A DNA stretch of 64,000 bases. It comes from Sphingobacteriales bacterium (GTDB taxonomy: Bacteria; Bacteroidota; Bacteroidia; Chitinophagales; Chitinophagaceae). The DNA is taken from positions 186,001 through 250,000 of the forward strand of contig SEFT01000004.1 in NCBI GenBank assembly GCA_004144175.1, in the 5' to 3' direction. Both the position numbers and the translations under genes were made by a program. Of this stretch, positions 9,476 through 19,132 are shown piece by piece (the first letter of the stretch is position 1; each line of letters begins with the position of its first letter). The notes under the pieces were generated by a model. That model worked only from the letters and a program-made list of their open reading frames with translations, was not told the DNA's origin and did not search any database.

Positions 9476-11683
9476 TTAGTTGCCTGCTACTTCTTCTGTT
9501 TTTTGTTGCAGCTTGATGTCGGTGCCTATGCGTTGCAGGTAGGCTATCAGCGCCACTATTTCCCTACTGCTCTTTATTTCTATTTTGTCTTTGGCGAGGT
9601 TGCCCTTTATTTGATCGGCCTGGGCCATCAGGTCGCGGTTAGCTATGCGGTCGTAGCCCTTGGCGTAAGGCACACCCAGCGTTTGCATGGCCCTGATCTT
9701 AGCCGCCGTCACCGACGTATCCAAGTCGTTCTCGAACAGCCACTGATAGTTGGGCATGATAGAGCCGGGCGACATGCTCGATGGCTCGTACATATGGTTG
9801 AAGTGCCAGCTATCGGGGTATTTGCCGCCTACACGCGCCAGATCAGGTCCTGTACGTTTACTACCCCACTGGAAAGGATGGTCGTATACAAACTCACCTG
9901 CTTTTGAGTATTCGCCATAGCGCGCTACCTCGCTGCGGAAGGGTCGTACCATCTGGCTGTGGCAGGTGTAACAGCCCTCACGTACATATAAATCACGGCC
10001 TTGTAGCTCCAGCGGGGTGTAAGGTTTCACACTGGCTATGGTAGGTACATTCGACTTCACCATAAAGGTGGGAATGATCTCGATAGCACCGCCAATAATA
10101 ACTACTACCAGGCTGCCTACCAGCAGTTGCACGGGGCGACGCTCTATCCAGCGGTGCCAGTGATCGGTGCCATGTGGTACATATTCTTTGGTAAGCGGCG
10201 CTGCTTCTGCTGCTTCGTCGTTTACAACTTTGCCATTCTTTACCGTCTTCCATATGTTCACCACCATCATTACCGCACCTATCAGGTATAGTGTACCACC
10301 TATGCCGCGCATCATATAGAAGGGACGCATTTGGTCAACTGTCTCCATAAACTGATACTTTAACTGGCCTTCGGGTGTAAACTCTGCCCATGCAAGGCTC
10401 TGCATAAAGCCAGCCCAGTACATAGGCACCGCGTAGAAGATCATACCGAGTGTACCTAGCCAGAAATGCCAGTTGGCCATCTTGGTCGAGTGTAGCTCAG
10501 TTCTGAATATTCTTGGCATCAACCAGTACAGCACACCAAACGTCAGGAAGCCATTCCAACCCAAAGCACCTACGTGTACGTGTGCAATGGTCCAGTCGGT
10601 AAAGTGGCTGATGGCGTTTACGTTCTTCAGGCTTAGCATTGGGCCCTCGAAGGTTGCCATACCGTAAGCAGTAACGGCTACCACCAGAAATTTCAGCACC
10701 ACATCTTCACGCACTTTATCCCATGCACCACGCAGTGTAAGCAAGCCATTGAGCATACCGCCCCACGATGGCGCCAGCAGCATAATAGAGAACACTGTAC
10801 CCAGCGACTGCGCCCAGTCGGGCAAGGCAGTATATAGCAAGTGGTGTGGTCCTGCCCATATGTATAAGAATATAAGCGCCCAGAAGTGTATGATCGATAG
10901 GCGGTAAGAATATACAGGACGGTTAGCCGCCTTGGGCAGGAAGTAATACATAAGCCCGAGGTAAGGTGTGGTCAGGAAGAAGGCTACTGCATTGTGGCCA
11001 TACCACCATTGCACCAGCGCATCCTGCACACCTGCATACCAGGAGTATGATTTCATCCATGTGAATGGTATCTCCCATGAGTTAACGATATGCAGCAAAG
11101 CTACCGTTACGAACGTGGCGATATAGAACCAGATAGCCACATATAGGTGACGCTCACGGCGCTTCAGTATGGTACCAAACATGTTCCAGCCAAAGGCTAC
11201 CCATACCAATGTAATGAGTATGTCAATCGGCCATTCCAGCTCTGCATATTCTTTACCGGTAGTATAGCCGGCCAGCAGAGTTACAGCCGCCAGCACTATG
11301 ATGGACTGCCATCCCCAGAAGTGCAGCTTGCTGAGCTTATCGCTGTACATACGCGCCTTGCACAGGCGTTGCAGCGAGTAGTACACGCCCATGAATATAC
11401 CGTTACCGACGAAGGCAAATATTACAGCATTGGTATGTACTGGTCTTACACGGCCAAAGGTGGTAGGTGCCGAGCTGAAGTTAAGCTGCGGAAAGACCAA
11501 CTGGAATGCTGCAAGCAAACCGGCGAGCATTCCTACTACTCCCCAGAACATGGTAGCGTAGGCAAACCACTTGACGATCTTGTTATCGTAAAAGAACTTG
11601 TCTATGCCTCCTGTGCTTTCGATCTTGATCCGGTGCTCCGTAGCAGCCTGCAGGGCTCCGGATGATTGAGAACTGGTACTCAT
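9476..11683 (-). CDS. ccoNO: Fused cbb3 oxidase subunits I and II (CcoN-CcoO)
   Basis: A 735-residue fusion. Residues 1-480 are the twelve-helix heme-copper subunit CcoN, which reduces oxygen to water; signatures include VHTNAVIFAFVGNG, WWYGHNAVAFFLT and HVGALGWNGF. Residues from about 500 are CcoO, a membrane-anchored c-type cytochrome with the heme site CYTCH, the following SQMVRPFRSEVARYG, and GSIMPNYQWL. The fusion is known from many Bacteroidota. It is the second gene of the cco operon, after ccoS. Confidence 0.96.
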   Translation of the reverse strand: MSTSSQSSGALQAATEHRIKIESTGGIDKFFYDNKIVKWFAYATMFWGVVGMLAGLLAAFQLVFPQLNFSSAPTTFGRVRPVHTNAVIFAFVGNGIFMGVYYSLQRLCKARMYSDKLSKLHFWGWQSIIVLAAVTLLAGYTTGKEYAELEWPIDILITLVWVAFGWNMFGTILKRRERHLYVAIWFYIATFVTVALLHIVNSWEIPFTWMKSYSWYAGVQDALVQWWYGHNAVAFFLTTPYLGLMYYFLPKAANRPVYSYRLSIIHFWALIFLYIWAGPHHLLYTALPDWAQSLGTVFSIMLLAPSWGGMLNGLLTLRGAWDKVREDVVLKFLVVAVTAYGMATFEGPMLSLKNVNAISHFTDWTIAHVHVGALGWNGFLTFGVLYWLMPRIFRTELHSTKMANWHFWLGTLGMIFYAVPMYWAGFMQSLAWAEFTPEGQLKYQFMETVDQMRPFYMMRGIGGTLYLIGAVMMVVNIWKTVKNGKVVNDEAAEAAPLTKEYVPHGTDHWHRWIERRPVQLLVGSLVVVIIGGAIEIIPTFMVKSNVPTIASVKPYTPLELQGRDLYVREGCYTCHSQMVRPFRSEVARYGEYSKAGEFVYDHPFQWGSKRTGPDLARVGGKYPDSWHFNHMYEPSSMSPGSIMPNYQWLFENDLDTSVTAAKIRAMQTLGVPYAKGYDRIANRDLMAQADQIKGNLAKDKIEIKSSREIVALIAYLQRIGTDIKLQQKTEEVAGN

Positions 11684-11866: not shown

Positions 11867-11892
11867 TGGATAGCTTTCTTCTTTTGGATTTA

Positions 11893-11900
11893 CAAAGCTA
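11893..11900 (-). promoter_or_regulatory. Putative -7 box of the ccoS operon
   Basis: TAGCTTTG on the minus strand fits the Bacteroidota -7 consensus TAnnTTTG, 27 bases before the ccoS ATG. No good -33 TTTG is seen at 19-21 bases upstream, as expected for an activator-dependent promoter. Confidence 0.55.
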
Positions 11901-11944
11901 CCATGGCGCTAAGGGGTACCCTATGACGGCGCTCAAGCCAAAAC

Positions 11945-11958
11945 ATGACTGTCGTCAT
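11945..11958. promoter_or_regulatory. Crp/Fnr-like operator upstream of ccoS
   Basis: ATGACTGTCGTCAT is a dyad with half-sites TGA and TCA six bases apart, the geometry of Crp/Fnr sites. The symmetry extends to CATGAC-N4-GTCATG. It lies 44 bases upstream of the -7 box, centred near -64 from a predicted start, a class I position. Two similar sites occur at 14987 and 16334. Confidence 0.6.
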
Positions 11959-11977
11959 GCTTTTGTCAGCGCTATGG

Positions 11978-14419
11978 TTAGCTTTTAAGAGAGAGGCCCA
12001 ACATACGTGCACGCAGACTACTGAGCCCCGTGGTGATGAGAACGATGCTTAGTGTACTCACCGGCATCAGGATGGCGGCGACCATGGGGCTCATCCTGCC
12101 TTGTACAGAGATGTACAACCCGACGATATTGTATAGAATGGAGATAACGAAACTGATATTGGTAATGACCCTGCCCGACTTAGCAAGCTTCAGCAACTGC
12201 GGAAAGTATTTAAACTTTTTAGCGTCAAGGATCGCATCGCAGGATGGTGTAAAATTATTTACATCATCGGCCAGTGTAATTCCTACATTACTTTGCTGTA
12301 ATGCGCCCGCATCATTCAGGCCGTCACCCATCATTAACACTTTATACCCGGCCTGTTGCTGTTGCTCAATGTAATTCAGCTTGTCGGCAGGCTTTTGACT
12401 AAAGAGAAAATCTGTTTTTTTCTTAAAGAACTGCTGCATCACAGCACGCTGCCGATCATTGTCCCCCGACAATAAGGATAACTGATATTGCTCTTCTAGC
12501 GTTGGTATCACATCTGCAAGGCCATCGCGCAGCAGCGGCACTATGTAGAATGCGGTTACCTTATCATTGACACGAACGTATAAGTTTGCTTTTTCGTTAT
12601 CGGCGGTGTCTATATCCAGGTAGTCCGCAGAGCCGATCATTATCTTATTGCCCGATATTACTGCGTCCAAACCTTTACCCTCTGTTTCTTTCCAATGCTC
12701 CGGAGACGATCGATCATGTTGCCCTAAATAGCTTACCAATGCTTTGCTGTAAGGGTGCTTGCTCGATACTGCTACATTGTACACCCATGACTTTTCTTCG
12801 TCGCCTAGCTGATGGCCTGTACACACAAGCTGCGTAGTGCCTTGAGTCAGTGTTCCTGTCTTGTCAAAAACAATCTGGTCTATTTTGCCTAGCTCCTCTA
12901 TCACCACTGCATCGCGCAGAAAGAGGCCATTATTACTAAAGATCCGCAGCAGGTTGCCATCCGTGTAAGTAGCCGCCAGCAACAAGGCACAAGGGCAGGC
13001 CACGATCAGCATGGCCGATACACTGGGCAATATCTTAGCGGGATCGTTCACCGCCCAGTACAAGCCGGTAACGGCAGCCAGTGTAAAGAGCACAATAGTA
13101 AAATACCGGCTCAGCATATGCACTACACTATGTTCTTTAGCGGTCTTTATCTTGTTCTTCGTAAACGCATGGTGGTTCCAGAGAGAGGTAAGATAACTGC
13201 CCGCAACAGGTTTGATGACTTGCAAAGTTATTTGTTCCCCTACCTGTTTACCGCCTGCATATATTACCTCACCTTCCTTTACTACCACAGGCTCGCTTTC
13301 GCCGGTCACAAAGCTATAGTCAATACTGGCTTTGCCCTTTAGCACAATTGCATCAGCAGGCACTATTTCTTCGTTATGCAGCTCTACCACATCCTTTTCC
13401 TTCAGGCCTTGTATGCTGCGGCTCTCAATGCCGGTAGCCGTTACCACATTTACGGCAATGGGAAAGTAAGATTTATAATCGCGATGAAAAGATATGGACC
13501 TGTAAGTGCGCTCCTGCACCACTCTGCCCACCAGCATGAAGAAGACGATACCACTCATGCTATCAAGGTAACCGCCACCTGTGTTTGTTGCTATCTCGTA
13601 AATACTCCTCGTGAATGTAATAAGCAAAGCCAACACAATAGGCGCGTCGATGTTCAGCACTCTTTGCTTTACACCCGCCCAAGCTGAGGCAAAGAACTCC
13701 GTTGCACTGTAAAAGAACACGGGCAGCGCCAGCACCAGGTTGAGCATACGGAACAACTGCGCATACTGATGATCTATGCCCGAGCTATGCGACAGGTATT
13801 CGGGGAAGCTCATCATCATGATATTGCCAAAGCAAAATCCTGCAATACCCAGCTTGTATATCTTTTGCTTGTCGTATTTCTTTTCTGCCTTTTTATCATC
13901 GGCATCCTCCAGCGATATATATGGCTCGTAGCCGATGGTACAAAGCAGCTCTACCACCTGCCTTATTGCTATTTTATCCTTCCGGAAATGTATGGTCACT
14001 TCTTTTGAAGTGAAGTTGAGGCGGCTGCTGTTAATTCCTTCGTTCAGCCGGTGCATATGCTCCATCAGCCACATGCACGATGTGCAGTGGATGCCGGGGA
14101 TGTAGAAAGTAGTGATTGTGTGATTGCCGTCGGTAAAAGAGTAAAATTTCCGGGCTATGTCTTCATTATCCAGGTAGGCATACTTGTCCTGCCGGGTAGC
14201 TTTTATCTGCGACAGGCCCGGGTGCGACTGCAATGAATAATAATCGCAAAGGCCATTATTGTTGATGATTTCATACACCAGCTTACAACCTTCGCAGCAA
14301 AAGACTTTATCTTCCAGGGAGATATTTTTGGTAATACAGGGTGTACCGCAATGATAACACAACACGTCTTTCTTCACCGGCTGCTTTATGATTACCGTAT
14401 TTTTCTCTTTAGTAAGCAT
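11978..14419 (-). CDS. ccoI: CcoI/FixI-type copper P-type ATPase
   Basis: An 813-residue heavy-metal P1B ATPase. The N-terminus has a Cys-rich metal-binding region (CYHCGTPC at residue 21 and FCCEGCKLVYE near 40), then a heavy-metal-associated domain with CTSC at about 112-115. Downstream are the CPC helix (VACPCALLLA), the phosphorylation motif DKTGTLT and the hinge GDGLNDAGAL. The N-terminal zinc-ribbon-like part is typical of CcoI, which delivers copper for cbb3 oxidase assembly. Its start overlaps the end of the Cys-rich upstream gene by 11 bases, suggesting translational coupling. Confidence 0.95.
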   Translation of the reverse strand: MLTKEKNTVIIKQPVKKDVLCYHCGTPCITKNISLEDKVFCCEGCKLVYEIINNNGLCDYYSLQSHPGLSQIKATRQDKYAYLDNEDIARKFYSFTDGNHTITTFYIPGIHCTSCMWLMEHMHRLNEGINSSRLNFTSKEVTIHFRKDKIAIRQVVELLCTIGYEPYISLEDADDKKAEKKYDKQKIYKLGIAGFCFGNIMMMSFPEYLSHSSGIDHQYAQLFRMLNLVLALPVFFYSATEFFASAWAGVKQRVLNIDAPIVLALLITFTRSIYEIATNTGGGYLDSMSGIVFFMLVGRVVQERTYRSISFHRDYKSYFPIAVNVVTATGIESRSIQGLKEKDVVELHNEEIVPADAIVLKGKASIDYSFVTGESEPVVVKEGEVIYAGGKQVGEQITLQVIKPVAGSYLTSLWNHHAFTKNKIKTAKEHSVVHMLSRYFTIVLFTLAAVTGLYWAVNDPAKILPSVSAMLIVACPCALLLAATYTDGNLLRIFSNNGLFLRDAVVIEELGKIDQIVFDKTGTLTQGTTQLVCTGHQLGDEEKSWVYNVAVSSKHPYSKALVSYLGQHDRSSPEHWKETEGKGLDAVISGNKIMIGSADYLDIDTADNEKANLYVRVNDKVTAFYIVPLLRDGLADVIPTLEEQYQLSLLSGDNDRQRAVMQQFFKKKTDFLFSQKPADKLNYIEQQQQAGYKVLMMGDGLNDAGALQQSNVGITLADDVNNFTPSCDAILDAKKFKYFPQLLKLAKSGRVITNISFVISILYNIVGLYISVQGRMSPMVAAILMPVSTLSIVLITTGLSSLRARMLGLSLKS

Positions 14420-14918
14420 GGATGGCTTTTTGTGCTTTTACGATCTCCGGTATTAGTTGCTGCTCTTCCAGCTCAAAAAGATCCAGCAGCGCGTTTGTTA
14501 CCGTCAGCTCGTAGATGGAAATTCTATATCCCGCGTCACCCTCACCTACAGATGTTCTACATCGTTGTACATCATCTATCATAGCCCTCAACTTAGCGTG
14601 CGAGCCCGACAGACTAGCTACATATATGCCGTGCTGCACCTTACAGCCACCCGAGCATGTACTGCAATTGTGCCCGTCGGCTTCTTTATGCTGTAGCTCC
14701 ATCAGGTAGGGCACCAATATGGCACGTCGCTCTTCCATTATCGATGACACCAAGGCGCATAACTGACGGCATAGATCAAGATATATCCCGGTGGCCGGTG
14801 CGCCGCCCAATAGTGCTTTAAAATTTCGGTTGAGCTGGTCGATCACCACATAATATTCAAGGTCAATTTTTTCTGTAACCTGTTGCAGATCGATTATTGC
14901 AATACCGGATATATCCAT
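14409..14918 (-). CDS. Hypothetical helical protein with CSTCSGGC motif, coupled to ccoI
   Basis: A 169-residue soluble, mostly helical protein. A Cys-rich motif, NCSTCSGGCKVQH, lies at about residues 90-102. It precedes ccoI with an 11-base overlap, so the two are co-translated. The His- and Glu-rich context (ELQHKEADGHN, LFELEEQQLIPEI) is faintly reminiscent of hemerythrin-like helical bundles, but the full ligand set is not there. A role in sensing or handling metal or redox state for the oxidase is inference. The ATG at 14918 is chosen; a longer TTG frame would start inside the operator dyad. Confidence 0.75.
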   Translation of the reverse strand: MDISGIAIIDLQQVTEKIDLEYYVVIDQLNRNFKALLGGAPATGIYLDLCRQLCALVSSIMEERRAILVPYLMELQHKEADGHNCSTCSGGCKVQHGIYVASLSGSHAKLRAMIDDVQRCRTSVGEGDAGYRISIYELTVTNALLDLFELEEQQLIPEIVKAQKAIHAY

Positions 14919-14934
14919 ATTTAAATTCTTGAAG

Positions 14935-14942
14935 CGAAAATA
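14935..14942 (-). promoter_or_regulatory. Putative -7 box of the ccoI unit
   Basis: TATTTTCG on the minus strand matches TAnnTTTG at seven of eight positions and lies 17 bases before the ATG at 14918. No TTTG -33 element is seen at the right distance. Confidence 0.45.
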
Positions 14943-14986
14943 GCCCTGCTGACTGGCTTGGCTTATGACGCCCGGCAAGCCCGCCA

Positions 14987-15000
14987 ATGATATATATCAT
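14987..15000. promoter_or_regulatory. Crp/Fnr-like operator upstream of the Cys-rich gene and ccoI
   Basis: ATGATATATATCAT is a perfect 14-base palindrome with TGA-N6-TCA geometry. It lies 44 bases upstream of the -7 box at 14935-14942, exactly the spacing seen at the ccoS promoter. Confidence 0.6.
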
Positions 15001-15012
15001 CGGCTGTACTGC

Positions 15013-16299
15013 CTAAACCTTACACGGCTTGCTAAACCGTTCAAAATACTCCCGCTCCAGGCTTTCGCGATGGTCGGGGTGAGCAATGCCGATCAGCAGC
15101 TTTGCACGTTGCTCCAGGTTCTTTCCATACAGGTTTACAAGGCCATATTCGGTGGCCACATACTGTATATGCCCCCTCGTAGTCACTACGCCTGCTCCTT
15201 GTTTCAGGAACGGTACTATTCTCGATACACCCTTATTGGTAACGGATGGCAATGCAATGACCGGCTTACCACCTTCCGACAAAGAGGCACCGCGCATAAA
15301 GTCCATCTGCCCGCCTATGCCGCTGTACTGGCAAGTACCGATAGAATCTGCACATACCTGGCCCGTCAGGTCTATTTCAATCGCACTGTTTACTGCAACC
15401 ATTTTCGGGTTCTTCCTGATAACCGACGTGTCGTTCACGTAGCTAGCCTCGAGGCAATTGACAAATTGATTGCCGTTTATAAAATCATATACTTTCTTTG
15501 TACCGAGCACAAAGGAGCTGATGATCTTACCACGGTGTATTTTCTTATGCTCATTCGTTATTACACCTTTTTCTACCAGCGGTACTATACCGTCCGAAAA
15601 CATCTCGGTATGTATGCCAAGGCCTTTGTGATTATCCAGGCAACTTAGCACTGCATCAGGTATGGCCCCTATGCCCATTTGTAATGTTGAGCCATCCTCT
15701 ATGATCGAGGCCACGTGCCTGCCGATCTCCCGGGACTGCTCATTCAGTTTTGAGGAGAAATCCAGCTCCTGCAATTCCGCCTTCTGCCATACCATGGCAT
15801 CTATCTTCGATGCATGTATCAATCCCTCTCCATATACCCTGGGCATCAGCGGATTTACCTGTGCTATAATCTTTTTTGCATTGCGCACTGCGCTCATGGT
15901 TACGTCCACCGATGGGCCTAGGGTACAATACCCGTGCGCATCGGGCATAGACACCTGTATCATAGCTACATCCAGCGGCAGTATGCCTTTATCAAACAAA
16001 CGCCCTATCTCGCTCAAAAAGACGGGCACGAACCCGCCTCTGCCCGAATTAACCCAATCGCGCACGTTGGATGAAGCAAAGAGCGAATTGAGATAGAATC
16101 TATTCATCACTTCTTCGCTTCGCCAATTGATATTGCCATACAAACTAATACATGTCAATTCAACATCATTTATCTCCCCTGCCCTTGCCAATAAGGCATT
16201 TATAAGATACAGCGGTGTAGCCGCACCGCCCTGGATAAATACCCTGTTACCGCTCTTTATGTGTCCTACTGCCGCCTCTACTGTTATGTATTCTGCCAT
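15013..16299 (-). CDS. Acetyl-CoA hydrolase / CoA-transferase family protein
   Basis: A 428-residue enzyme of the acetyl-CoA hydrolase/4-hydroxybutyrate CoA-transferase family, which moves CoA between acetate and another acid or hydrolyses it. Seen are the N-terminal FIQGGAATPLYLINALLARA, the GMGAIPDA-like segment QMGIGAIPDAVL at about 208-219, GIHTEMFSDG near 230, and the C-terminal GIGGQMDFMRGA and HIQYVATEYG. The exact acceptor cannot be told. Its placement beside oxygen-linked genes and behind a Crp/Fnr-like dyad suggests a role in low-oxygen acetate metabolism, which is inference. Confidence 0.88.
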   Translation of the reverse strand: MAEYITVEAAVGHIKSGNRVFIQGGAATPLYLINALLARAGEINDVELTCISLYGNINWRSEEVMNRFYLNSLFASSNVRDWVNSGRGGFVPVFLSEIGRLFDKGILPLDVAMIQVSMPDAHGYCTLGPSVDVTMSAVRNAKKIIAQVNPLMPRVYGEGLIHASKIDAMVWQKAELQELDFSSKLNEQSREIGRHVASIIEDGSTLQMGIGAIPDAVLSCLDNHKGLGIHTEMFSDGIVPLVEKGVITNEHKKIHRGKIISSFVLGTKKVYDFINGNQFVNCLEASYVNDTSVIRKNPKMVAVNSAIEIDLTGQVCADSIGTCQYSGIGGQMDFMRGASLSEGGKPVIALPSVTNKGVSRIVPFLKQGAGVVTTRGHIQYVATEYGLVNLYGKNLEQRAKLLIGIAHPDHRESLEREYFERFSKPCKV

Positions 16300-16303
16300 A
16301 GTG

Positions 16304-16311
16304 CAAAGCTA
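16304..16311 (-). promoter_or_regulatory. Putative -7 box of the acetyl-CoA hydrolase gene
   Basis: TAGCTTTG on the minus strand, identical to the ccoS box, lies 5 bases before the ATG at 16299, which would give a nearly leaderless mRNA. The operator at 16334 would then centre near -42, the class II activator position. Confidence 0.45.
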
Positions 16312-16333
16312 TTTCACCCTGCACCGGGCGATG

Positions 16334-16347
16334 ATGATTATGGTCAT
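16334..16347. promoter_or_regulatory. Crp/Fnr-like operator between divergent genes
   Basis: ATGATTATGGTCAT carries the same TGA-N6-TCA half-sites as the dyads at 11945 and 14987. It lies between the acetyl-CoA hydrolase and the PAS kinase, 22 bases from the former's -7 box and 39 from the latter's. Confidence 0.55.
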
Positions 16348-16386
16348 CCATGCAACTGATGCTGATCGCAAATGAGCAGCAATGAT

Positions 16387-16409: not shown

Positions 16410-17603
16410 ATGGTGAACGCCCAGAATACCCAGCAGGAATACGAAGCATTGTTCAACAATGCGGCCATAGGCATTATCACGGTAAACAAGCAGGGCAATA
16501 TAGTCCTGGCCAATCAGTTTGCACTCCAGCAGTTCGGCTATGCGCTAGACGAGCTGGTAGGGCAAAAGATCGAGATACTGATACCGCAACGCTTCGCGCA
16601 CAAGCACGAAGATCACCGTAACAGATACTACTCTCAAAATCCGCACAGCAGGCCTATGGGTAGCGGTATGGATCTCTTCGCCGTAAAGAAGAATGGTATA
16701 GAGTTTCCGGTAGAGGTAAGCCTGAGCATCTACAACACGGCCGAGGGACAATTCGCTATAGCCTTCATTAGCGATATAACCATACGCAAGCAATCGGAGC
16801 AGGCGCTGGTACAACTGAATGCAGAGCTGGAGCAAAAGGTGAAAGAGCGTACACAATCGCTAACTGAAGCACTTGAGAAAGAAAAAGAGCTGAATGAACT
16901 GAAGTCAAGATTCGTATCAATGGCTTCTCATGAGTTCCGCACACCGCTCAGTACTATTTTGTCATCAGCCTACCTGGTAGCCAAGTACACGCAAACAGAG
17001 GAGCAGCCAAAACGTGATAAGCACATACAGCGCATCGTGTCGTCTGTCAATATGCTGAATGATATACTCAATGATTTCCTGTCGGTAGGTAAGATAGAAG
17101 AGGGACGCATACAGGTGCGTTATTCCAGCTTTGTTATCACCGAGTTTTTAAAAGGTGTTATATCAGAACTACAGCCGATATTCAAGGCCGGGCAAACAAT
17201 GGACTATATGCACGCCGGTGCCGACACGATAAAGCTAGACCCCGCATTGCTGAAGCATATTGTGATGAACCTGCTGAGCAATGCGATTAAGTTCTCGCCG
17301 GAGCAGTCGGCTATTAAAGTGACAACAGCGGTAGAAGGTGACGAATTGCTGCTTTCGGTACGCGACCAGGGGCTGGGTATATCTCAGGAAGATCAGGAGC
17401 ATTTATTCGAGCGTTTCTTCAGGGGAGCGAATGTGACCAACATACAAGGCACGGGCCTTGGACTACATATTGTAGGTAAGTATACAGAGCTGATGAACGG
17501 CCACATAGCCTGCAACAGCGTACTCGAAGAAGGTACTGAATTTATTATTAGGTTTAAGCTACAAAACACGAACGATGAAGACAGTTCTGCTTATAGAAGA
17601 TAA
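16410..17603 (+). CDS. Soluble PAS-domain sensor histidine kinase
   Basis: A 397-residue cytoplasmic kinase without membrane helices. A PAS domain at residues 8-125 resembles the FixL type; it keeps HKHEDHRNRY near 64-73, where FixL has its heme-binding HEHDGYLQRY, but lacks FixL's distal Arg (Met here). A coiled coil leads to HisKA with SHEFRTPL (His 174), and the ATPase domain shows NLLSNAIKFS and GTGLGLHIVG. It overlaps the next gene by 29 bases, so the two form an operon. Heme or oxygen sensing is possible but unproven; many PAS domains of this type bind no heme. Confidence 0.9.
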   Translation: MVNAQNTQQEYEALFNNAAIGIITVNKQGNIVLANQFALQQFGYALDELVGQKIEILIPQRFAHKHEDHRNRYYSQNPHSRPMGSGMDLFAVKKNGIEFPVEVSLSIYNTAEGQFAIAFISDITIRKQSEQALVQLNAELEQKVKERTQSLTEALEKEKELNELKSRFVSMASHEFRTPLSTILSSAYLVAKYTQTEEQPKRDKHIQRIVSSVNMLNDILNDFLSVGKIEEGRIQVRYSSFVITEFLKGVISELQPIFKAGQTMDYMHAGADTIKLDPALLKHIVMNLLSNAIKFSPEQSAIKVTTAVEGDELLLSVRDQGLGISQEDQEHLFERFFRGANVTNIQGTGLGLHIVGKYTELMNGHIACNSVLEEGTEFIIRFKLQNTNDEDSSAYRR

Positions 17604-18633
17604 TACGGACATCAGGGAGAATATGGCCGAGATACTGGAACTGGCCAACTATAAAGTACTGACCGCACCCGATGGTAAAGAAGGTGTGGCAATGGCTGTG
17701 GCAAATGAGCCCGACATCATCGTATGCGATATAATGATGCCGGTACTGGATGGCTACGGTGTGATACATATGCTACAGAAGAATGAGAAGACGCAGAATA
17801 TCCCCTTCATCTTCCTGACGGCAAAGGCAGAACGTACAGAGATACGAAAGGGCATGGAGCTGGGTGCAGACGATTACATTACCAAGCCATTCAACGGAAC
17901 GGAATTGCTCAATGCCATTGAAAGCAGGTTGAGAAAGTCGGCCTTTGTAAAACAGCCTATCAGCCCCGACATCAAGGGTTTTGACAGTCTGATAACTACG
18001 GTTAGTGGTGATGTAGTGCTGGAGCGCCTCAGGCAAGACCGCAGCACCGACGTATATAAGAAGAAACAGATCATCTACCACGAGGGCAACCATGCACTGA
18101 GGCTGTTCTATGTAGAAAAGGGAAAAGTAAAAACCTATAAAGCGAACGATGATGGCAAGGAACTGGTGATAGACCTGTATAGTAAGGGCGATTTCTTCGG
18201 CTATAATGCCCTGCTCGAAGGCACGCCTTATAAAGAAACGGCCGAGGCGCTGGAAGATGCAGAAGTAGCTGCGATACCCAAAGATGAATTCGAGCAGCTC
18301 ATCAACAGCAATAAAGAAGTGATGAAGAAATTTGTGCAACTGCTGGCAAAGAATGTGTCGGAGAAGGAGCAACAGCTGCTGAACCTGGCCTACAACTCGC
18401 TGCGTAAGAAAGTAGCCGATGCATTGGTAGCGATCTATAACAAGTACAACGCTACAGAGTCTTCAGAATTCAGCATTGACATCAGCCGCGAGAACCTGGC
18501 CAATATTGCAGGCACTGCAAAGGAGTCGCTGATAAGAACACTAAGCGACTTCAAAGACGAAAAACTGATAGACATCCGCCAGGGCGAGATCATTGTGAGA
18601 GAGATCAAAAAGCTTCGGTCATTAGCCAACTAG
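17575..18633 (+). CDS. Response regulator with Crp/Fnr-type output (receiver, cNMP-binding fold, HTH)
   Basis: A 352-residue fusion. Residues 1-125 form a receiver with phosphorylated Asp 52 (IIVCDIMMP) and Lys in FLTAKAER. Residues about 155-255 are a cyclic-nucleotide-binding fold (IIYHEGNHALRLFYVEKG, GDFFGYNALLEG). Residues about 280-345 are a Crp-type helix-turn-helix, with recognition helix GTAKESLIRTL that keeps the Glu and Arg which contact TGA half-sites in Crp/Fnr proteins. No Cys cluster for an iron-sulfur centre is seen. Phosphorylation by the upstream kinase should control it. Its stop codon shares CTAG with the converging gene. Confidence 0.93.
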   Translation: MKTVLLIEDNTDIRENMAEILELANYKVLTAPDGKEGVAMAVANEPDIIVCDIMMPVLDGYGVIHMLQKNEKTQNIPFIFLTAKAERTEIRKGMELGADDYITKPFNGTELLNAIESRLRKSAFVKQPISPDIKGFDSLITTVSGDVVLERLRQDRSTDVYKKKQIIYHEGNHALRLFYVEKGKVKTYKANDDGKELVIDLYSKGDFFGYNALLEGTPYKETAEALEDAEVAAIPKDEFEQLINSNKEVMKKFVQLLAKNVSEKEQQLLNLAYNSLRKKVADALVAIYNKYNATESSEFSIDISRENLANIAGTAKESLIRTLSDFKDEKLIDIRQGEIIVREIKKLRSLAN

Positions 18634-19067
18634 GCCGATGCGGGTAGCAACACACCAAAAACATATTCATTGAAATCGGACTTCAGGCGGCTGAATTCTG
18701 TTTCCATCTTTTCCATATCACGGCGCAGGTGCTCTTCTTTCTGAAGTGCCTGTTTTGTTGTACGCTCATCCTGTAGGTCCACTTTCGCAGCCAGTTCTAT
18801 CATGTCATGGCGCAACAAAGACAGCACCGCATCCTTATCGATAAATTTATTGTGGAAGTATTCTATTTTATCCAGGTAATCGCTATGCACATCGTACTGT
18901 AGCAGGTCGGCCACTCTGTTTTTCAGGTATATATTCTCCTGTTGCAGATAGTCGAGGGTGCGCAGCCATGTGTTCACTTCGTGTCCATATTGCTGCGCAC
19001 GCGCATCTTCCGTTATTGCATTATATCGTTTTACAAGGCCCACCGGTTGCTGCTTCAGTTTTTTCAA
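18630..19067 (-). CDS. Hypothetical coiled-coil protein
   Basis: A 145-residue, charged, all-helical protein with no membrane segment. Heptad-like spacing is clear at about residues 40-60 and 95-135 (QKEEHLRRDMEKMETEFSRLK). It ends VFGVLLPASA. The start is a TTG at 19067, because no in-frame ATG occurs before about residue 80; the true start is therefore uncertain. It converges on the Crp-type regulator with stop codons sharing CTAG. I do not recognise the family. Confidence 0.7.
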   Translation of the reverse strand: MKKLKQQPVGLVKRYNAITEDARAQQYGHEVNTWLRTLDYLQQENIYLKNRVADLLQYDVHSDYLDKIEYFHNKFIDKDAVLSLLRHDMIELAAKVDLQDERTTKQALQKEEHLRRDMEKMETEFSRLKSDFNEYVFGVLLPASA

Positions 19068-19132
19068 AATTAAGGCAACACACCAAACCAGTTAATGACA
19101 CCCGGCATCTTAAAAAATGATCTTCGTCACCC

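Follow-up and report, generated by a model that had tools for sequence, protein, structure and literature searches.

Paired Crp/FNR-type dyads at putative low-oxygen promoters of a cbb3 oxidase cluster in a Sphingobacteriales bacterium

In rhizobia, the FixL-FixJ-FixK cascade controls the fixNOQP and fixGHIS operons, and in mycobacteria the LuxR-type response regulator DosR governs a dormancy regulon through other operators. Here we describe a 64,000-nucleotide stretch of a Sphingobacteriales bacterium (Chitinophagaceae; GCA_004144175.1, contig SEFT01000004.1, positions 186,001 to 250,000), hereafter the window, in which a cbb3 oxidase (cco) cluster accompanies genes for a PAS histidine kinase and for a receiver-Crp fusion protein (REC-Crp). 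An initial annotation had proposed that three copies of ATGA-N6-TCAT are Crp/Fnr-like operators common to the cbb3 oxidase promoters, a proposal that is strongly supported by recurrence of the motif upstream of relatives' cco genes. The sites are parts of paired dyads, which are probably best explained as operators of a low-oxygen regulon read by REC-Crp under the PAS kinase. The system is a variant of the known FixK/FNR-type control of cbb3 oxidase; we found no description of the paired operator, or of high-affinity respiration control in this lineage, in the open-access literature.

With the rhizobial cascade the locus shares a FixL-related PAS kinase, a predicted phosphorelay, a Crp/Fnr-type activator and cbb3 targets (fixNOP/ccoI/ccoS), but here the receiver and Crp domains form one protein, the -7 box is that of Bacteroidota, the operators are tandem, and the outer base of the upstream copy is A or C more than T. 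Dyad spacing, the TGA..TCA core, a copy near -41.5 and anaerobic or microaerobic targets are common to FNR and DNR class II promoters; unlike those, this locus has a second dyad 22 bp upstream and a regulator without FNR-type N-terminal cysteines. The FNR box is given as TTGAT-N4-ATCAA in a published study (PMC1274295). The same study gives wTGTGAnnnnnnTCACAw, wyTTGACnnnnGTCAArw and GTAACnnnnGTTAC as HcpR and HcpR2 motifs, and reports HcpR2 regulons, of hcp genes only, for most Bacteroides species and P. gingivalis (PMC1274295); these regulators likewise belong to the Crp/Fnr family, but the outer bases or core of their motifs differ from the operators here. Bacteroides Crp (BT4338), a Crp-family regulator in the same phylum, differs in motif and gene set, its sugar regulon motif being reported as wwwTATGTTnTAnAACATAwww (PMC3878776).

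The window holds three exact ATGA-N6-TCAT matches and no others (Table 1), and 22 bp from each lies a second dyad that the initial annotation overlooked, as it did a fourth promoter at 19095-19130. The 44 bases that it gave from site to -7 box at ccoS (TAGCTTTG) and at the ccoI unit (TATTTTCG, 5 of 6) hold, and equal 51 from the dyad centre. Its class I reading of these two sites is corrected: rather than lone class I sites, they are the upstream copies (-63.5) of tandem pairs, each with a weaker copy at -41.5. At the acetyl-CoA hydrolase gene, the class II position that it expected near -42 agrees with the centre deduced from the box, about -41.5 at a centre-to-box distance of 29. These positions count from transcription start sites (TSS) predicted from the box. 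In a Flavobacterium psychrophilum transcriptome study, TAnnTTTG is reported at -12 to -5 (PMC9723704), and the same placement here puts the copies at about -63.5 and -41.5. The promoter code is TGA-N6-TCA, N10, TGA-N6-TCA, N23, TAnnTTTG, and the position of the downstream copy relative to the -7 box fits a class II activator centred near -41.5. As in FixK/FNR-type operators, a TGA-N6-TCA dyad stands upstream, at a fixed distance, of promoters near cbb3 genes. The TTGA outer base of those operators is not shared: it is A in all three window sites, and A (47%) or C (33%) leads in the upstream copy of 84 promoters, while some single copies do have TTGA.

A composite 67-base promoter model, trained on 83 promoters with the window left out, scores the four window promoters at 41.0 (ccoS), 34.9 (fourth promoter), 30.1 (hydrolase gene) and 25.4 (ccoI unit). 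The next window score is 11.0, and the best of six windows shuffled in 3-base blocks is 13.7. Since the model was trained in part on cco promoters from relatives, these scores reflect shared ancestry and constraint and are no independent prediction.

For the comparison with relatives we used 80 Bacteroidota loci, the best 80 of 542 from a scan with the REC-Crp protein, in which 10.8% of 1.39 Mb is intergenic; gene boundaries throughout come from crude open-reading-frame calls. At gap 6, ATGA is the third commonest four-base dyad of this intergenic DNA, behind TTTT and AAAA. Its ranks at gaps 4, 5, 7 and 8 are 160, 44, 34 and 90, and among gaps 4-8 the dyad stands out only at spacing 6. ATGA-N6-TCAT occurs 79 times in intergenic and 63 times in coding DNA of these loci, and the narrower ATGAY-N4-RTCAT, which all three window sites fit, 62 against 15 times. 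Besides the window, these refined sites precede the kinase-regulator operon in 18 loci, ccoN in 10 and relatives of the 170-amino-acid gene in 6; they also precede homologues of the gene at 18630-19067 in 10 loci and universal stress proteins in 7, along with other genes. A motif search in related genomes, for which the initial annotation had named lack of enrichment at cco genes as refutation, found the motif upstream of cco genes. Some ccoN upstream regions of another family (f15; for example L136, L151 and L152) have TTGA-N6-TCAA instead, perhaps another Fnr specificity.

The tandem arrangement recurs in the same loci. Around the 79 strict intergenic sites, neighbours scoring at least 8/10 lie 22 bp away 32 times, a pair of two strict sites entering twice, and the next best spacings, 12 and 48, have 5 each. 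Among 289 intergenic TGA-N6-TCA dyads, 53 pairs are 22 bp apart; a minor second spacing of 48 bp has 7 pairs (L016-L095). TAnnTTTG boxes fall at 51 from the site centre in 17 of 44 cases and at 29 in 6. This spacing control is imperfect, in that one of nine other dyads, CTGA-N6-TCAG, also has 3 of 5 boxes at 51; we take these for variant operators. Upstream of ccoN, in regions that form a set of their own (144 sides), 18 boxes lie at 29 and 8 at 51. Of the 44 exact boxes in a tandem set that we collected, 40 stand 51 from the centre of the upstream copy, and a 5-of-6 box does so on 84 of 166 promoter sides, or 76 of 157 once sides at least 65% alike are collapsed. Because 40 of the 201 sources of this set were chosen for holding tandem matches, its 130 intergenic against 7 coding matches give no rate; the dyad ranking, neighbour spacings, 22-bp pairs in the 80 loci and genome-wide class counts are free of that selection. 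Genome-wide, 49 genomes of the window's class hold 132 tandem matches, against 6 for the reversed control. Of these, 112 fall in 21 genomes with REC-Crp outside one family (f5, probably Flavobacteriaceae) and 8 in 11 f5 genomes with REC-Crp; genomes without it hold 0 (7 of f5) and 12 (10 others). Sequence comparison of this kind establishes the tandem architecture, its fixed distances, its conservation and its gene context. The spacer between copies tends to be T-rich (tandem set, positions -45 to -40), perhaps as a docking place for the polymerase alpha subunit. On 14 sides of that set, box-like sequences are also seen 10 from the centre of the upstream copy.

The gene at 17575 encodes a member of the Crp/Fnr superfamily, with a cNMP-binding fold (PF00027) and a Crp-type HTH (PF13545) above cut-offs. 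Its REC domain comes first and the sequence has no CxxC, so the N-terminal cysteine cluster of FNR is absent; nor is it a FixJ, in which REC is joined to a LuxR-type HTH. This protein likely reads the sites, as judged from co-occurrence, the sites before its own operon and the lack of another close candidate: among the matches listed for the window genome, only REC-Crp itself reaches E<=1e-10 with the Crp part. In 76 of the 80 loci the kinase gene immediately precedes the regulator gene; 29 of these 76 have a site of at least 9/10 upstream of the operon, whereas a control pattern has none there (0 of 76). In the window the 16334 site, between the hydrolase gene and the divergent kinase-regulator operon, is upstream of the latter too, a point that the initial annotation had overlooked. 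The kinase PAS domain matches a multi-sensor kinase, FixL (1d06, E=6.7e-13) and the heme PAS domains of DosP in the PDB. In an alignment of 77 rows, read with FixL residue numbering (R206, heme His), the heme-ligand position is His in 61, a gap in 13 and another residue in 3. Like FixL, the PAS is thus heme-PAS-related with a proximal His, and heme-based oxygen sensing by this kinase is an even prospect.

These elements suggest the following mechanism. Each promoter has a pair of Crp/FNR-type dyads, spaced 22 bp and centred near -63.5 and -41.5, ahead of a sigma-A-type -7 box. Falling oxygen would lead the PAS kinase to phosphorylate the REC domain of REC-Crp, two Crp-type dimers would then occupy the neighbouring dyads, and the one nearer the promoter would recruit RNA polymerase as a class II activator. 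The output would comprise genes for the assembly of cbb3 oxidase, one CoA-transferase/hydrolase-like gene and one encoding a small protein without assigned function. In outline this would be the FixL-FixJ-FixK cascade with FixJ and FixK merged into one protein; from sequence we infer that the regulator binds, that it is phosphorylated, that oxygen is the signal, that the promoters are activated and not repressed, and that the dimers cooperate. That the window sites are functional operators we regard as very probable.

The distribution of regulators bears on this reading. REC-Crp, called by open-frame length among the matches listed, is present in at least 32 of 198 phylum genomes, and ccoN was found in 142. 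In 80 of these 142, with about 69% identity or more (not all genomes at that level), we examined 5 kb upstream of ccoN. Stand-alone Fnr-like proteins were called at 85 bits, a cut-off of our choice with several genomes just under it; the f5 genomes counted as having REC-Crp only include some with stand-alone matches just below. Among genomes with both regulator types, 10 of 11 have the promoter geometry (with one or two exact copies). The figure is 15 of 16 where REC-Crp is the sole type and 16 of 27 where only the stand-alone type is present, and the geometry is absent from all 26 genomes that have neither. With either type, then, it is found in 41 of 54 genomes against 0 of 26, counting regulators among the matches listed; with box distances shifted by 5 or 7 it appears in 6 of 320 tests. 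The promoter position is thus common to both regulator types, and tandem or single arrangement follows lineage more than regulator type. In the window's family and order (f1 and f2, probably Chitinophagales), 8 of 9 genomes are tandem, including two without REC-Crp among the matches listed, and tandem as a strict mark of REC-Crp is weakened, family being the better predictor upstream of ccoN. A tandem site lies directly downstream of the REC-Crp match in the f5 genomes G174 and G025, and in G122, G002 and G099; G174 and G025 (L213, L214), which have both regulator types, have single ccoN sites and the tandem beside the REC-Crp gene.

Several observations weigh against control by REC-Crp through paired sites. 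None of the 26 genomes with neither regulator belongs to the window's class, and in 13 there are weaker Crp matches that fall short of 85 bits, some at 84-85, which makes the contrast partly taxonomic and dependent on the cut-off. The geometry is missing from 11 of the 27 genomes with only the stand-alone protein, all 17 f5 genomes have a single -41.5 site upstream of ccoN with or without REC-Crp, and G150 and G017 have tandem sites yet no REC-Crp among the matches listed. In the kinase, Arg occupies the Arg206 position of FixL in 6 of 77 rows and is not conserved, which leaves heme unproven. Autoregulation by the usual geometry is unsupported in the window, where the kinase-side box is 46 from the centre of the 16334 site, off the usual positions. 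The initial annotation had also read the lack of a -33 TTTG as a sign that an activator is needed. Of 84 tandem promoters 1 has TTTG and 7 have TTG there, but this scarcity is mostly built in, since the selected downstream copy fixes bases in that stretch, and the argument is weakly testable because the -41.5 copy fills most of the -33 place. In a fairer comparison TTTG accompanies 2 of 17 boxes where the upstream copy alone is present, 1 of 19 where the downstream copy is, and 26 of 162 without a copy, and TTG 1 of 17, 1 of 19 and 52 of 162; we set the argument aside as largely forced by the -41.5 copy. Our estimates were left as they were because they rest on spacings, although the -33 argument and the contrast with genomes lacking both regulators are weakened.

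Chance palindromes would account for the counts. The initial annotation's estimate of about one site per 65 kb is near the dinucleotide expectation we computed, 1.28 for the window, and three or more sites arise in 11 of 100 dinucleotide shuffles, so that a count of three is not significant by itself. Across the 4.34-Mb genome the refined pattern is matched 33 times, as often as its reversed control (33), and the tandem pattern, one mismatch allowed, 9 times against 10 for its control. Both comparisons also count against our preferred reading, and we dropped motif number as evidence because neither the window nor the refined genome counts exceed chance. Of the 33 refined matches, 6 are intergenic, 3 of them the window sites within 4.4 kb, and four of the 9 tandem matches are the window promoters. 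With spacings of 22 and 51 conserved in many loci and, judging by sequence, recurring in unrelated genomes, and window promoters scoring 25.4-41.0 against 13.7 (by a model trained in part on relatives' cco promoters), we consider chance extremely improbable. Repression, in which the regulator would block the promoters in air and leave at low oxygen, is consistent with a dimer at -41.5 that can overlap the polymerase site, the sign of regulation here being deduced. Repressor sites usually vary in position, whereas both copies keep fixed distances (51 and 29) to the -7 box, as expected of an activator that touches polymerase, and we hold repression to be very unlikely.

Better placed, though still unlikely, is the explanation that the operators are real and are read by a stand-alone Fe-S Fnr-like activator, with REC-Crp acting on a small set of its own. 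Stand-alone Crp-type proteins are encoded in 19 of the 80 ccoN upstream regions, and 17 of the 19 have an N-terminal CxxC, which suggests Fe-S sensing; their recognition helix (mostly GTATES.IR) resembles the GTAKESLIR of REC-Crp. Genomes with only this type carry sites, 18 of 27 by the loose motif and the 16 noted above by geometry. In the window genome, by contrast, REC-Crp is the single close match listed (the assembly is 97.6% complete, and a gene could be missing), and L122, a weaker Crp-like protein, lacks the CxxC and differs in its helix. Control by REC-Crp remains the reading we prefer. A broader scenario is more tentative, and we give it somewhat less than even chances: a one-protein FixJ-FixK step would have spread through Bacteroidia, with a heme-PAS kinase and REC domains locking two Crp dimers on 22-bp tandem operators, so that a dormancy-like regulon would be switched cooperatively at low oxygen, while f5 would drive cco from one -41.5 site with an Fe-S Fnr.

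Table 1. Features of the window, with positions counted from its first nucleotide; negative numbers in the last column are operator centres relative to the predicted TSS.
Feature	Position	Strand	Basis or remark
ccoN-ccoO fusion, cbb3 oxidase subunits I/II	9476..11683	-	Pfam COX1 + FixO; NF011053 above cut-off
ccoS, 53 amino acids	11705..11866	-	TIGR00847 above cut-off
ccoS promoter, -7 box TAGCTTTG	11893..11900	-	TSS predicted near 11888
ccoS promoter, downstream operator copy TTGAGCGCCGTCAT	11923..11936	-	0 mismatches to tandem pattern; ~-41.5
ccoS promoter, upstream operator copy ATGACGACAGTCAT	11945..11958	-	exact motif, model; ~-63.5
ccoI-type P-type ATPase	11978..14419	-	Pfam E1-E2_ATPase, Hydrolase, ATPase-cat_bd
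ccoI unit, first gene, 170 amino acids	14409..14921	-	at most weakly hemerythrin-like (Pfam Hemerythrin E=0.05, below cut-off)
ccoI unit, -7 box TATTTTCG (5 of 6)	14935..14942	-	TSS predicted near 14930
ccoI-unit promoter, degenerate downstream copy TTGCCGGGCGTCAT	14965..14978	-	1 mismatch; ~-41.5
ccoI-unit promoter, upstream operator copy ATGATATATATCAT	14987..15000	-	exact motif, model; ~-63.5
Acetyl-CoA hydrolase/CoA-transferase family protein	15013..16299	-	Pfam PF13336, PF02550
Hydrolase gene, -7 box TAGCTTTG	16304..16311	-	TSS predicted at ATG (16299)
Hydrolase-gene promoter, downstream copy ATGACCATAATCAT	16334..16347	-	exact motif, model; ~-41.5
Hydrolase-gene promoter, degenerate upstream copy GCGATCAGCATCAG	16356..16369	-	1 mismatch, model; ~-63.5
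PAS histidine kinase	16410..17603	+	Pfam, PDB search; PAS related to FixL, DosP heme PAS
REC-cNMP_binding-HTH_Crp fusion, likely regulator	17575..18633	+	Pfam
Small protein, function not assigned	18630..19067	-	open reading frame; homologues preceded by refined motif in 10 loci
Fourth promoter, -7 box TAATTTTG	19065..19072	-	sequence position
Fourth promoter, downstream copy ATGCCGGGTGTCAT	19095..19108	-	tandem pattern, model
Fourth promoter, upstream copy GTGACGAAGATCAT	19117..19130	-	1 mismatch; model score 34.9

The cco cluster runs on the minus strand through the 170-amino-acid gene, the ccoI-type ATPase, ccoS, ccoNO, ccoP and ccoG. For the ATPase the NCBIfam heavy-metal ATPase models stayed below their cut-offs, and for the small proteins at 14409-14921 and 18630-19067, both repeatedly under the operator, Pfam and NCBIfam gave nothing above cut-off. 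The listed TTG start of the latter (19067) precedes the predicted TSS (near 19060), and its true start is therefore probably downstream. At the hydrolase gene the predicted transcript start coincides with the A of the ATG (16299-16311), so that the mRNA may be leaderless. Elsewhere in the genome, a perfect tandem operator lies at C70:13208-13241 between mutL-like and glycosidase-like genes (L205 / L113), the latter label being our reading of the gene's sequence; among the other genome stretches examined, it has a model score of 28.8 toward the glycosidase-like gene.

In relatives, the predicted regulon extends beyond respiration. We ran Pfam on 20 hand-picked downstream proteins, and 18 had a match: Usp, Hsp20, CBS, BON, glutamyl-tRNA reductase, ferrochelatase, PPDK and fumarase, and further nitroreductase, ScdA/hemerythrin, cation ATPase, erythromycin esterase, PfkB and others. 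This mix (Usp, Hsp20, CBS, PfkB, erythromycin esterase, cation ATPase, nitroreductase) resembles what we take to be the DosR gene set, a likeness of gene sets only. In F. psychrophilum, oxygen limitation is reported to induce cbb3 and heme-synthesis genes (PMC9723704), which fits the predicted regulon.

Overall, this work provides an exact, searchable promoter code with a named candidate regulator and kinase, for a predicted regulon that in relatives takes in Hsp20, universal stress proteins and the synthesis of heme. One promoter position is preserved here under regulators that probably sense in different ways, and the system could show whether receiver domains make Crp dimers cooperate.

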